Shown here piece after piece: positions 22,822 to 29,856 of a DNA stretch of 35,825 bases (the stretch's first letter is position 1; each line of letters opens with the position of its first letter). The notes beneath the pieces are model-generated. The model was given only the letters and a program-made list of their open reading frames with translations, was not told where the DNA came from and searched no databases. The stretch lies in contig CAISXI010000384.1 in assembly GCA_903889425.1 (NCBI GenBank), positions 1-35,825 on the forward strand. Reading direction: 5' to 3'. The DNA is from an uncultured Roseiflexaceae bacterium. GTDB taxonomy: Bacteria > Chloroflexota > Chloroflexia > Chloroflexales > Roseiflexaceae. The translations under genes were made by a program, and so were the position numbers.

Positions 22822-23160
22822 TTAGAAGGGTTCTATGCCAACGGCGGCTAATTCGTCGGCGAATTGTTCAAAATCGTGGCGCGAGCGTAGGCGTTCGAGT
22901 GCTTGCAGTAATGGATCACGTTTAATCCCAGGCAACAATAATGCCCGACCCACAAATTGGCGTAAGTAACTGAGAATCACGGCGCGATTACTCGCAATCA
23001 TGGTTTCACCTTGAAAATACGATTCCATTGCAAGGGCGAGGCGCCCGGTTTGTTCGGTCATCCAAAAATGCGGTGGCACTGCGACATTGAATGGGTATGG
23101 ATAGCTTGGATCGGGCAAATACGTCAATCCGTCAATTGTTTCTGGGCTTGGAATTGTCAT
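22822..23160 (-). CDS. Hypothetical protein, 112 aa
   Basis: I do not recognise this family. The product is soluble, begins MTIPSPETIDGLTYLPDP, has a Pro/Tyr/Phe-rich N-terminal third (SYPYPFNVAVPPHFW) and a helical C-terminal two thirds (RAVILSYLRQFVGRALLLPG). A good ribosome binding site (GAGGT) precedes the ATG, and a promoter with near-consensus boxes lies 50-75 bp upstream, so it is very probably expressed. The stop lies only 4 bp from the heptamer array. Divergent from the PHP/Schlafen-type gene, with which it may share regulation. Confidence 0.72.
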   Translation of the reverse strand: MTIPSPETIDGLTYLPDPSYPYPFNVAVPPHFWMTEQTGRLALAMESYFQGETMIASNRAVILSYLRQFVGRALLLPGIKRDPLLQALERLRSRHDFEQFADELAAVGIEPF

Positions 23161-23410: not shown

Positions 23411-23480
23411 GTTAATTTTGATTAGTGCGACAAAGCGTTCTATTTGCAAAAGGCAAAAACTGAAATATTGGAGTACGTCG

Positions 23481-25679
23481 ATGAATTTGTCCCCTAGTAC
23501 CAGTAGCCACGGCAGTATTGTATTGCGCATCGATCCTTATGTGCGCTATCAACAACGTGATGACAGTGAGCATCTCGAATTGCTCCAAGCTGCAGCAAAC
23601 GCCGCATTGGACATGATTGCCATGACTGATTTAGGCACGCTGAAAGGATTCGAATCACTCCAGCGTGACCTCGAGAAGTTAGTATTACTCGAAAAAGCCG
23701 GTATTCTCAATGCCCAAGATCAAGTGCGCTTAGCGCTCCATCGCGAGCTCCGGGCCCGTACCATGATCCTGCCGGGATTTTCCATAATCAGTAGTGAATC
23801 AGTACTCTTTAGTGCGATTTTTGCAGCAGATACTGCTACTACCAGTATCATCACCATCTTGCAACACCTCGGAGGCGAATCACCTACCGGCCAAAGCCAG
23901 ATGCCTGCCAGCGCCGTGTGTGCACTGGTGCATGCCGCCGGCGGTATCGCCATTGCACATCCTAGTGATGACGACCACCTCAGCGTCGTACAATCATTGC
24001 TTGCCACTGGGCAACTGCATGCCATCGACCAAACGAACCCTGCCATCAGCGATGTGTGTATCCTCGGTGGCTCAGGCGCTACGACCCTCGATGCAATTGG
24101 GGCAGCCTTCAGTGAAATCACGCTGACTGCGCCTACCTTTGCCGCCTTGCGTGATGTCGTCCTCGCCCACCAACACACGGCGATTAGTTTTATCAACACC
24201 CCGATTCGGCGCTGGGCCATCGACCAATTACTCCAAGCCAGCAACGACAATCATATCGTACAACTCCCTGAAGCCAAAAGTGCCGATTTGGCACCACACA
24301 TCGCCGCCTTGGCCAATGCCGGCGGGGGCATCATGCTGCTCGGTAGCGAGCAAGGGCAGATTGTTGGGCTCAAGCAACGCGAAAAAGCCCTCACCGCCGT
24401 CAGTAAAGCAGTCGAACTCTTGTCTCCAGCCCCCCAAATCAACAGCGAATCAATCCAAATCGATGCTGATGAGTTGTTGCGTGTTGAGGTGCGGCCTAGC
24501 GCGAGCGAGCAACCACCCTATGTGCTCCGCGATGGACGCATCATGGTACGCCGTGACGGCCAAACCCAAGCCGCCACTTCGCTCGAGATTCGTCAGCTCT
24601 GCCAAAACCCCGGTGGCGATGGTAGCGACCTCGATCTGCCCCGCAGTGGCGTGTCGGTGGTATCAGCCCAGCGCCGCGCCGGGATTTGGCATTACGAAGT
24701 GCGCGATTTGCGCACCACCGCCGGCGTCACCCGTGACCGTGCCCAAGGCTTGTGGAGCTATGCCATCGAGCAACACGAAAAGCTCCGTGATGGCAGCGAA
24801 AGCCTCGATACCATCAAATGGACCAATCAAATCGGCTTGTGGCGCACGTACGTCCAAGGCGGGCGCCCCAAATACGATTTAGTGCACCGCGATAGTAGCG
24901 GCGTGATTGACCATATCTTCTATGGTGTCTCTGATTGGGGGCTTGGCATCCAATGGCAACAACTCATCAATACCTATGCGCCCCAGTTACCCGTCGATAC
25001 CGTCACCTTTGACGACGAAAATCCGGCTGCTCCCCCACCCTCTACCACCGCCGTCGTTACCCAGACTGTCGCCTATCCCACCAACATGCCCGCCTTGCAG
25101 TTCCCACCATTCCAAGGTGATCGCAAACCACGCTGGCGCGGCCGCGGTGCCATCACCCGTATTTGGCGTGACGAAGAAAATAAGCCACGCTTTGATTTGC
25201 TCCTCAAAAACAAAACTACCGACGATGCCGAAGGCAACGAAGCCTTCGAAATCCAAGAATACCACGGCGTCACCCGTGACCAACTCAACCAAGCCTGGCT
25301 TGATTTGATTCAAGTCAAAAAACCACGTACGGGCATCGAAGTGGTCGAAACCGTCCAAGACGATCAGAGTGAACGGCGCTTCATCTTCCGCAATCTGCGC
25401 AACGACGAAGTCAGCCCCCACCCCTGGCGCATGAACGACATCGAAGAAGGCAGCATCCGTCAATATGCCGCCCGCATGCACCTCGCCGACCAAGCCATCA
25501 ACGAAGAAAACATCCGCTGGTGGGGCAATATCGGCTATATGCGCCCGATGCGCCGCCAAGTCGATCTCATCTTCCGTGACGAAGAGGGCGTCGATCACAT
25601 CTACTATGCAGCCCGCCGTGACGAGCTCATCGGCGAATGGCATGATTTGATGGCCGAATACGACGACGTCGTCGAATAA
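23481..25679 (+). CDS. Degenerate PHP domain fused to Schlafen/AlbA_2 domain and duplicated C-terminal module
   Basis: A 732-aa protein of uncharacterised function. Residues about 13-235 follow the PHP layout (ALDMIAMTDLGTLKGFESL, TMILPGFSII, GGIAIAHPSDD), but the N-terminal HxH is replaced (VLRIDPYVRY) and TDH reads TDL, so PHP phosphoesterase activity is probably lost. Residues about 245-375 match an AlbA_2/Schlafen domain (HIAALANAGGGIMLLGSEQG, ELLRVEVRPS, GRIMVRRDGQTQAATSLEIR). The C-terminus has two related units (about 400-500 and 618-723) sharing IKW/IRW, YDLVHRD/VDLIFRD and IDHIFYG/VDHIYYA, with a shorter similar segment between. The ATG at 23481 has GGAG 7 nt upstream. Single-gene unit with its own promoters and terminator. 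Possible nucleic-acid-binding regulator. Confidence 0.82.
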   Translation: MNLSPSTSSHGSIVLRIDPYVRYQQRDDSEHLELLQAAANAALDMIAMTDLGTLKGFESLQRDLEKLVLLEKAGILNAQDQVRLALHRELRARTMILPGFSIISSESVLFSAIFAADTATTSIITILQHLGGESPTGQSQMPASAVCALVHAAGGIAIAHPSDDDHLSVVQSLLATGQLHAIDQTNPAISDVCILGGSGATTLDAIGAAFSEITLTAPTFAALRDVVLAHQHTAISFINTPIRRWAIDQLLQASNDNHIVQLPEAKSADLAPHIAALANAGGGIMLLGSEQGQIVGLKQREKALTAVSKAVELLSPAPQINSESIQIDADELLRVEVRPSASEQPPYVLRDGRIMVRRDGQTQAATSLEIRQLCQNPGGDGSDLDLPRSGVSVVSAQRRAGIWHYEVRDLRTTAGVTRDRAQGLWSYAIEQHEKLRDGSESLDTIKWTNQIGLWRTYVQGGRPKYDLVHRDSSGVIDHIFYGVSDWGLGIQWQQLINTYAPQLPVDTVTFDDENPAAPPPSTTAVVTQTVAYPTNMPALQFPPFQGDRKPRWRGRGAITRIWRDEENKPRFDLLLKNKTTDDAEGNEAFEIQEYHGVTRDQLNQAWLDLIQVKKPRTGIEVVETVQDDQSERRFIFRNLRNDEVSPHPWRMNDIEEGSIRQYAARMHLADQAINEENIRWWGNIGYMRPMRRQVDLIFRDEEGVDHIYYAARRDELIGEWHDLMAEYDDVVE

Positions 25680-25694
25680 TCTAGGTACCGATGC

Positions 25695-25725
25695 GCCCCT
25701 CGCACACGATGTGTGAGGGGCTTTT
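25695..25725 (+). terminator. Rho-independent terminator after the PHP/Schlafen-type gene
   Basis: GCCCCT/AGGGGC and CACAC/GTGTG pair around a GAT loop with a two-base bulge, followed by CTTTTT. It isolates this gene from the Nudix gene. Confidence 0.85.
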
Positions 25726-27121: not shown

Positions 27122-28639
27122 ATGCATCAATTAGACAATCTTACAGCGACACAATTAGCCGCTGGTGCCACCCTCGACCGTCCGGCCGCCGTCATCCGCG
27201 AATTGATAGACAACGCCATTGATGCCGGTGCCCGCCACATCCAGATTCACGTCGGCGACCACGGGCGGATGGAAGTACGCGATGATGGGTGCGGCATGAC
27301 CGCCAGCGAATTACCGCTGGCGTTTACTCGACACACCACCAGCAAAATCACCAGTTATGCCGATTTAGTCGGTCTGCAGACATTAGGCTTCCGGGGTGAA
27401 GCCTTAGCGAGTATAGCGGCAGTCGCCCGGGTGACCTGCGTGAGTCGCACCGCCGATACCCCCCACGCCTATGAGTTACGCATCGCCGGCGGCGAAATCC
27501 ACGACATCCGCCCCTGTGCAGGCGCAGTAGGCACGCAAATCACCGTCGAGCGCTTGTTTTATACCACGCCCCACCGCCGCAACTTTTGGCGGCAGCCCTA
27601 TAGCGAAGCGCAACACATCGGCGATATCGTCAGTCGCTATGCCTTGTGTTACCCGGGCATTGCGTTTCATTATGCAAGTGGCGATCGTGAGCCGCTGATG
27701 ACGAGTGGCAGCGGGGATATCATGCAAGCCATATCAGAATTATGGCACGATGGCGACGTTACACCCGTCCACACCCAGCTCACTGGCATGGACGCAACCC
27801 TGAGTGGCGTGATTGCCAGTGCTGCTAGTGCGGCACCGCAACGGCGCCGCCAAATCATCGCCATCAACCAGCGCCCCATTGCCACCCGGGGGTTTATTGC
27901 GCGGTTACTCGATGAATTGCTCCCGCCGCAACGCCAGCACTACCCGGCGGTCGTCTTGCACTTCCAACTCCCCAGTGACGGCATCGACGTCAATATGCGA
28001 GCCGGCAAAGAAGAAGTAGGCATCCGCACGCCCAGCGCCATCGCACGCTTGTTGTACAGTACCTTCCGGCAACCGTTGTTTATGCCGCTCCCCACTACCA
28101 CGCCACTAGTGGCTATGCCCCCGCAACGATTGTTGGGATACCACCATAGCTGGCTGGTGGCGAGTGCGAGTGACGGGCTGACGGTGTTTTGTCCTGCCAA
28201 CATCATGGCCCATTGTGGTATTACCAGCCTCCCCAGTGGCGCATTGGTGGTGCCACCCTACCCACTATCGACCCGTGCCCAGCAGGCCCTGAGTCCACAT
28301 ATCGTGGCACTCGCCGCGCTCGGGATGGTATTGCAGTGGCAAGATGGGGTGTTAGTGATTATGCGCTTACCTGCCAATTACCACCAACGCCCCCTCGATC
28401 AATGCATTACCGCCATGATGCAGACGTTGCATCATGGCGGTACCCCAGCAATGGCTGTTGGTCATTTAATTGATGGAGATTATCTGATTGCCCAACTCCG
28501 CACCCACCATGCCCCATGGCAGGGCCATACCAGCTTGATTATTGCGCATTACCGCATGCTAAGCGCCCTACGCATGCCCCGAACTACTGAAGCACCTGAC
28601 GAATCGCCACTACCACCACCAGCAATATCACTACCGTAA
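27122..28639 (+). CDS. MutL homologue lacking the endonuclease motifs
   Basis: A 505-aa mismatch-repair-type protein. The GHKL ATPase half is well kept: RELIDNAIDAGA with the catalytic Glu27 and Asn31, DDGCGM (54-59), RHTTSKI, GFRGEALASIA and a Lys in VNMRAGKEEVG. The early LAAGATLDRPA departs from the usual IAAGEVVERPA. The C-terminal domain is recognisable (LLGYHHSWLVASASDGL) but the DQHAxHER metal motif reads FCPANIMAH, and the late CPHGRP site reads APWQGHTSLI, so nicking activity should be absent, as in E. coli MutL. Length is below the usual 600-680 residues. It has its own promoter. No mutS is in the window. Confidence 0.87.
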   Translation: MHQLDNLTATQLAAGATLDRPAAVIRELIDNAIDAGARHIQIHVGDHGRMEVRDDGCGMTASELPLAFTRHTTSKITSYADLVGLQTLGFRGEALASIAAVARVTCVSRTADTPHAYELRIAGGEIHDIRPCAGAVGTQITVERLFYTTPHRRNFWRQPYSEAQHIGDIVSRYALCYPGIAFHYASGDREPLMTSGSGDIMQAISELWHDGDVTPVHTQLTGMDATLSGVIASAASAAPQRRRQIIAINQRPIATRGFIARLLDELLPPQRQHYPAVVLHFQLPSDGIDVNMRAGKEEVGIRTPSAIARLLYSTFRQPLFMPLPTTTPLVAMPPQRLLGYHHSWLVASASDGLTVFCPANIMAHCGITSLPSGALVVPPYPLSTRAQQALSPHIVALAALGMVLQWQDGVLVIMRLPANYHQRPLDQCITAMMQTLHHGGTPAMAVGHLIDGDYLIAQLRTHHAPWQGHTSLIIAHYRMLSALRMPRTTEAPDESPLPPPAISLP

Positions 28640-28977: not shown

Positions 28978-29856
28978 ATGAAGATCAAATCACTCGCCAT
29001 CATCGCCGTCAGTACCGTGTTGTTGCTCGCAGGCATTAGCGTCGCCGGAGCTAATCCTATCGCTGTCCACACCGCCGCCACCAATGATGTCACAACCCTT
29101 GCTGCCCCGCCCCGTCGCCCCCAACCCCAGCCCACCCGCGTGCCTCCTGCACCACAGGTCCAAGCCATCCGCATTCAATGTGGTGTCGGACAAATCAACA
29201 ACGTTGACCCCATCGTAATGCCAGGCATGCCCGCGATGAGCCACTACCATCAATTCTTTGGCAATCGCAGCACCAACGAAAACACCACGATTGCCTCGTT
29301 GCTGGCCAACCGCGCCACCACCTGTAACGACCGCACTGACTCATCAGCCTACTGGGCACCCCAATTGTGGCAGGGCAGCACCGCTATCGCCCCCCGAAGC
29401 GTGACCGTGTTGTACGCCAAGACAGTCACGAGTGCCGTGGTAGCCCACCCTGCAGGCTTAGTCTTGATTGCGGGTGACGCCAAAGCTGCCGAAGCCCAAG
29501 ATTTGTCGATTGTCTCTTGGTATTGTGGCAACAACGTGCAAAACGCCTCCGCCACCCCACCAGCCTGTGCTCGCAACCAAGAGTTGGTCGGCTTGATTCG
29601 GTTCCCCGAATGCTGGAACGGCAAAGACCTTGATTCGGCCAACCACAAAGACCACGTGACCTACGCTGTCAACCGGACGTGTGCTGCCGGAACAGTGGCC
29701 TTGCCCCAACTCCAGATGCACATCCGCTACCCCGCCCAGGCCAATGTAAGCACCTTGGCACTGGCATCAGGTTCGATCTTCTCACTCCACGCCGACTTCA
29801 TGAATGGCTGGAACCAACGCGCCTTCGAACGCCAAGTTGCCCAACGCCTGCGCTAA
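28978..29856 (+). CDS. Secreted DUF1996 domain protein
   Basis: A 292-aa exported protein: signal peptide at residues 1-25 (MKIKSLAIIAVSTVLLLAG..., cleavage near VAGA), a Pro-rich linker (PPRRPQPQPTRVPPAP), then the DUF1996 domain with DPIVMPGMPAMSHYHQFFGN, SSAYWAPQLW, FPECWNGKDLDSANHKDHV and LHADFMNGW. The conserved His, Asp and paired Cys residues suggest a disulfide-stabilised enzyme-like or binding domain, but the family has no firm function. AAGGA lies 11 nt before the ATG. A strong terminator follows, so it is monocistronic. Confidence 0.88.
   Translation: MKIKSLAIIAVSTVLLLAGISVAGANPIAVHTAATNDVTTLAAPPRRPQPQPTRVPPAPQVQAIRIQCGVGQINNVDPIVMPGMPAMSHYHQFFGNRSTNENTTIASLLANRATTCNDRTDSSAYWAPQLWQGSTAIAPRSVTVLYAKTVTSAVVAHPAGLVLIAGDAKAAEAQDLSIVSWYCGNNVQNASATPPACARNQELVGLIRFPECWNGKDLDSANHKDHVTYAVNRTCAAGTVALPQLQMHIRYPAQANVSTLALASGSIFSLHADFMNGWNQRAFERQVAQRLR

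Follow-up and report, generated by a model that had tools for sequence, protein, structure and literature searches.

The window, by which we mean the whole stretch of 35,825 nucleotides analysed here from an uncultured Roseiflexaceae bacterium, carries on its forward strand an open reading frame at positions 23481 to 25679 that encodes a protein of 732 aa, with orthologues in most genomes of the order (counts below). A GGAG at 23470-23473 (+) is a likely ribosome-binding site before the ATG and fits a start that is conserved with the relatives, and the frame is followed at 25695-25721 (+) by a strong terminator-like hairpin of 12 pairs, 8 of them G-C, and then TTTTT. A preliminary description of this DNA, made from the letters alone, had the gene standing alone with two promoters and its own terminator. 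The gene does stand alone, and the hairpin upholds the terminator, but the promoter calls are weak: the region has 9 of them, where 4.8 +/- 2.1 are expected. The divergent gene at 22822-23160 (-) encodes 112 aa without a match in Pfam or NCBIfam and is a neighbour, not a part of the protein. The protein itself had been described as an inactivated PHP domain joined to an AlbA_2 domain and a duplicated unrecognised module, and this domain reading is correct.

The PHP domain spans residues 12-242 (23514-24206, +). In the window protein it was not detected by the sequence profiles of Pfam and NCBIfam, the NCBIfam scan (including the Ppl and TrlF models) gave no match at all, and a sequence search of the PDB returned nothing useful. 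An intact orthologue matches the Pfam PHP profile with E 1.2e-4, its 22.9 bits falling short of the cut-off of 26.4, and its residues 11-267 only match NCBIfam TrlF (E 2.8e-28, 99.2 bits against a cut-off of 350) and Ppl (E 6.2e-20, 70.8 bits against a cut-off of 1000). AlphaFold2 models were made of the window protein (pLDDT 81.9) and of an intact Roseiflexus orthologue (pLDDT 81.7). Foldseek matched the model of the window protein to 2anu (E 2.4e-6), and VIA-align matched its predicted N-terminal domain to EndoQ 7k30 (Z 16.7, 214 residues aligned at rmsd 3.6), to PsfC (Z 16.6), to 2anu (TM0559; Z 16.3, 182 residues aligned at rmsd 2.9) and to RNase AM (Z 13.7); the model of the intact orthologue gives Z 18.6 with EndoQ. 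The N-terminal domain is thus predicted to retain the PHP fold, in line with the fold pattern that had been noticed in its sequence. Since the pTM values are low in both models (0.45 and 0.47), the placement of the domains relative to each other is not readable from them.

The positions that we take to be metal-binding, from knowledge of the PHP family together with the conservation seen here, are intact in all 43 aligned orthologues outside the window's genus (column counts), where the motifs read DLHxHTPASEDYAEP, TDHN, LPGFEFTSHxGAH, IAxH and GSDAH. Copies from the genus were read from ten genomes, two of them cut by contig ends, and in these the ligand set (HxH, TDH, E, H and DxH) is replaced throughout, the one exception being the first H, which is kept in clade B. 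The motifs of the genus are DPYVRY or DPHVCY, TDLG or TGIG, LPGFS or LPGFT, IAHP and GGSGAT, and its PHP domain is shorter by about 50 residues when aligned with the orthologues outside the genus. The alignment bears out that HxH and the TDH histidine are lost, as had been described, and shows that the E, H and DxH positions are gone too; an intact metal site was looked for in the N-terminal domain and none was found. The AHP that had been counted as a kept trace of the PHP site is not at the homologous position, as the conserved H173 of the orthologue L040 pairs with P161, and this rules it out as a retained ligand. Short orthologues in two genomes (G003 and G001) were considered as truncations and rejected, both being contig ends. 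The genus was searched for another gene of this PHP type that could have rescued the function, and none was found, though other PHP proteins are present.

Outside the order, the strictly conserved ligands are kept in 43 of 44 additional relatives, drawn from other orders and classes, and as far as the sequences tell, the complete inactivation is limited to one genus, the surrounding family having retained its intact site. In one relative of the same class (L107:4224-6581 (+), genome G087) GSDAH reads FSNAH, with the aspartate lost, and an internal stretch is missing; this PHP domain, in a protein with two and a half modules, is partly eroded, perhaps in a second and incomplete loss.

A tree calculated without the PHP domain places all sequences of the genus on one side of one branch, with support of 100/100 and a long stem of 1.24. 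Both clades of the genus have H173->P, D242->S and the deletion in common, which also points to one loss event, and the metal site was accordingly lost once, on one branch leading to a single genus. The 112-aa gene described above is common to 12 loci, is conserved in Roseiflexaceae and is the only neighbour shared by the genus and the intact Roseiflexus-type loci; that the same gene flanks dead and intact copies supports their orthology.

What happened to the domain after the loss can be judged from the substitutions within the genus. In the two least diverged pairs, dN/dS for either half of the former PHP domain lies between 0.024 and 0.12. Between the window and its nearest relative the former PHP domain has 67 synonymous and 31 nonsynonymous changes, where about 80 nonsynonymous changes are expected neutrally; this expectation comes from random placement of the same number of changes in 2000 runs, of which the minimum for the window pair was 65 nonsynonymous. 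A second pair has 59 synonymous and 21 nonsynonymous changes, against about 63 nonsynonymous expected. The dead PHP domain was therefore under strong purifying selection after the loss and has not decayed. One could imagine that the domain is a decaying relic in a lineage with reduced genomes, in which only the AlbA_2 and C-terminal parts matter, and the genomes of the genus are indeed small (1.7-3.6 Mb, some of them incomplete, against mostly 4-8 Mb in the relatives), about 50 residues have been deleted and the identity of the domain to the relatives is down to 0.27. We find this most improbable, as the selection on the domain within the genus already largely refutes it, every copy read has an uninterrupted frame across the domain, and the predicted model is confidently PHP-like. 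It had been suggested that the protein switched from catalysis to binding. The departure from catalysis is well supported by the continued purifying selection on the dead domain; binding would be its putative new role.

Between the genus and other Roseiflexaceae the identity is 0.27 for the PHP domain, 0.36 for AlbA_2, 0.67 for module 1 and 0.62 for the latter half of the C-terminus, and the corresponding values among the other Roseiflexaceae are 0.84, 0.68, 0.87 and 0.79. By this measure the C-terminal modules are more strongly conserved than the enzyme domain.

Some observations on the genomes of the genus may be added here. Record titles that look like lake samples, such as 'ErkenSummer', lead us to infer a freshwater genus. 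Two records of the genus (L032 and L037) are titled Singulisphaera sp. GP187 and Thermoflexus hugenholtzii JAD2, and these titles are probably mistaken. The MAG Roseiflexaceae bacterium UBA965 also belongs to the genus (L036 being the same contig as G009), and on its contig of 3461 bases (L004 and L036) the frame breaks in the linker between the modules into frames of 593 and 259 aa, perhaps through a fault of the assembly, perhaps because the gene is truly split.

The second domain, at residues 243-376 (24207-24608, +), matches SLFN_AlbA_2 (PF04326) over residues 268-365 with E 1.7e-11 and 45.1 bits, well above the Pfam gathering score of 25.3, so that the AlbA_2 assignment of the preliminary description is secure. 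Its predicted fold matches 3lmm, DIP2311 (Z 11.1), the human Schlafens (Z of about 8) and the RecG-related 2kyy. A Schlafen nuclease is expected to have an acidic stretch, ExxxxE(F)K. The Pfam match begins at model position 19, and no such stretch was seen in the family alignments. Compared with a Schlafen core, the window protein has the domain and the fold in common, but it has one lobe only, lacks a visible acidic motif and joins the domain to PHP and to the C-terminal module. Judged from these family alignments, the AlbA_2 domain does not look nucleolytic, and since the PHP ligands are gone as well, the genus protein has no recognised catalytic site. It could still be an enzyme if an active site had been rebuilt at another place in the PHP pocket or within AlbA_2, and a few polar pocket residues (D18, H160 and E212) are kept and the AlbA_2 superfamily includes nucleases; we consider this improbable, however, for a PHP fold without its ligand set, next to an AlbA_2 domain in which the acidic motif is not seen, in a protein that matches no known enzyme family in Pfam or NCBIfam.

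The rest of the protein is built from one repeated module. Full copies lie at residues 386-502 (24636-24986, +) and 614-729 (25320-25667, +), and hhalign finds the two homologous with 98.9% probability and E 2.8e-16, where six column-shuffled controls give nothing. The duplication that had been described is thus real, and in addition residues 546-613 (25116-25319, +) form a half copy, comprising only the second half of the module (97.1% against residues 441-502). Between the first copy and the half copy runs a variable, low-confidence linker (residues 503-545, 24987-25115, +) with pLDDT below 50 at residues 506-543 and the lowest identity of all segments. Searches of the module against Pfam and the PDB gave no significant match and no named family. 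Three resemblances were set aside. AP2 was matched by 4 of 17 members with a best E of 0.22, and the single PDB matches to lysozyme (E 0.003, with no stretch passing alone) and to an InaD-like protein were likewise dismissed as chance. The order of helix, three strands and helix recalls a dsRBD, for which the TARBP2 row (E 0.13, probability 0.20) is too weak to be accepted.

The module is found across Chloroflexota. Outside the order most relatives have a single module, two and a half are present in the order itself and in a few others (L107 and L152, for example), and in one other Chloroflexota class the module is present in 157 of 249 genomes sampled. In a genome of another Chloroflexota class (G472) the protein L128:1286-2815 (+) carries the module, with 50.4 bits in the module profile and as the sole module match of that genome, behind an N-terminal NYN domain (Pfam E 4.7e-32). 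Like the window protein it thus has the module behind a nuclease-type domain, but here NYN replaces PHP-AlbA_2, and this in one genome only: in other members of that genome's family the module lies in frames of about 610 aa, and no second NYN-module fusion was found in five other genomes of its order that were searched. NYN domains are known as RNases, and the fusion is therefore a hint at RNA.

A class-wide search found the gene in single copy in 76 of 82 sampled genomes of the order Chloroflexales, with shorter relatives in other Chloroflexota orders, and it was found in 56 of 60 relatives searched. Roseiflexus, Chloroflexus, Oscillochloris, Chloroploca, Herpetosiphon and Kouleothrix all have it. 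Two genomes of a neighbouring genus of the same family (g3; G012 and G018) gave no match to the gene, one of them being 95% complete, and outright loss in that genus is possible. Among the whole-protein families searched, no named one matches the gene, clustering of the neighbours showed no partner genes conserved across the order, and a literature search for a PHP domain joined with Schlafen or AlbA_2 found none.

The gene had been called the best candidate in the window for an undescribed system, and its AlbA_2 domain had been linked to nucleic acids and defence; the analysis supports neither defence nor an undescribed system. An anti-phage role would fit the link from Ppl and Schlafen, and over its first 250 residues the intact PHP domain does resemble both Ppl (6.2e-20) and TrlF (2.8e-28). 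Defence genes are usually patchy in their spread, however, and this is a near-universal single-copy core gene, which makes the role unlikely. The survey of gene neighbourhoods gave no conserved partner and no conserved defence neighbourhood, there is no NTPase domain, and the PADLOC models gave no match to the window protein at E up to 10, and so we regard a defence system as very improbable.

Known PHP proteins offer closer parallels. Some enzymes of this kind act on DNA, Ppl as an exonuclease and EndoQ as an endonuclease. The solved PHP nucleases EndoQ and RNase AM share the fold of the window domain (Z 16.7 and 13.7), but their metal sites are intact and the window domain is without any. 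The named families nearest to the intact PHP domain are Ppl and TrlF (NF042955 and NF045780), of the DLHxHTPAS type; their C-terminal parts are, unlike ours, of ATPase type, and the intact orthologue scores far under their cut-offs. The nearest precedent is the E. coli Pol III alpha subunit, whose PHP domain has lost metal residues and is reported to serve the polymerase as a major structural element (PMC3666897). The pattern seen here is the same, with ligands lost in one lineage and the fold kept under selection, but in Pol III the domain is part of a polymerase and only some ligands are lost, whereas in the window protein the whole site is gone and the partners are AlbA_2 and the module. 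A domain on which the stability or activity of the remaining protein depends would fit the purifying selection.

The best explanation, to which we give a probability of about one half, is that the window protein is the catalytically dead form, peculiar to its genus, of a Chloroflexota core protein passed on by vertical descent, a putative nucleic-acid binder that was ancestrally a PHP enzyme. AlbA_2 and the modules would bind nucleic acid, RNA being the likelier kind; the bound molecule would be cut or trimmed by the PHP domain in most of the family, and in the window's genus the PHP fold would be a structural or regulatory part of a protein acting by binding alone. The genus protein probably works by binding, most likely of nucleic acid, rather than by cutting. 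The preference for RNA is hinted at by the one NYN fusion and by general knowledge of NYN and AlbA_2 domains; Ppl and EndoQ act on DNA, which is therefore also a possible substrate. A different use of the same domain would be as a sensor of a small molecule such as a nucleotide, in which the metal-free former pocket binds a ligand and controls the rest of the protein. New residues specific to the genus, for example AHP (159-161) and GGSGAT, are kept in both clades in the pocket region, selection on the domain is strong, and Ppl has been reported to be inhibited by nucleotides bound to its PHP exonuclease and NTPase domains (PMC12904381). As none of the evidence here separates a sensor from a structural part, we hold the sensor to be unlikely.

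The enzyme site was lost in one genus while the fold stayed under selection, which shows that whatever keeps the gene does not need catalysis, and the intact and the naturally dead orthologue can be compared directly. This is also a further and more complete case of a non-catalytic PHP domain, after Pol III, in a gene that is single-copy across an order, has relatives in other classes and is without a named whole-protein family among those searched. More tentatively, the family could be a near-universal Chloroflexales factor, with relatives across Chloroflexota, whose undescribed, repeated and putatively nucleic-acid-binding module is combined with interchangeable nuclease domains (PHP-AlbA_2 or NYN), the essential role being binding and the nuclease having become a pseudoenzyme in one genus; that genus would then be an experiment of nature in which binding is set apart from cutting.

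Two genes further along the window deserve mention. A short second MutL-like gene at 27122-28639 (+) encodes 505 aa and has full-length matches only within the genus, where an ordinary MutL is present too; in other genomes of the family the match covers just its N-terminal 320 residues. The gene at 28978-29856 (+) encodes a DUF1996 protein (Pfam E 1.3e-42).
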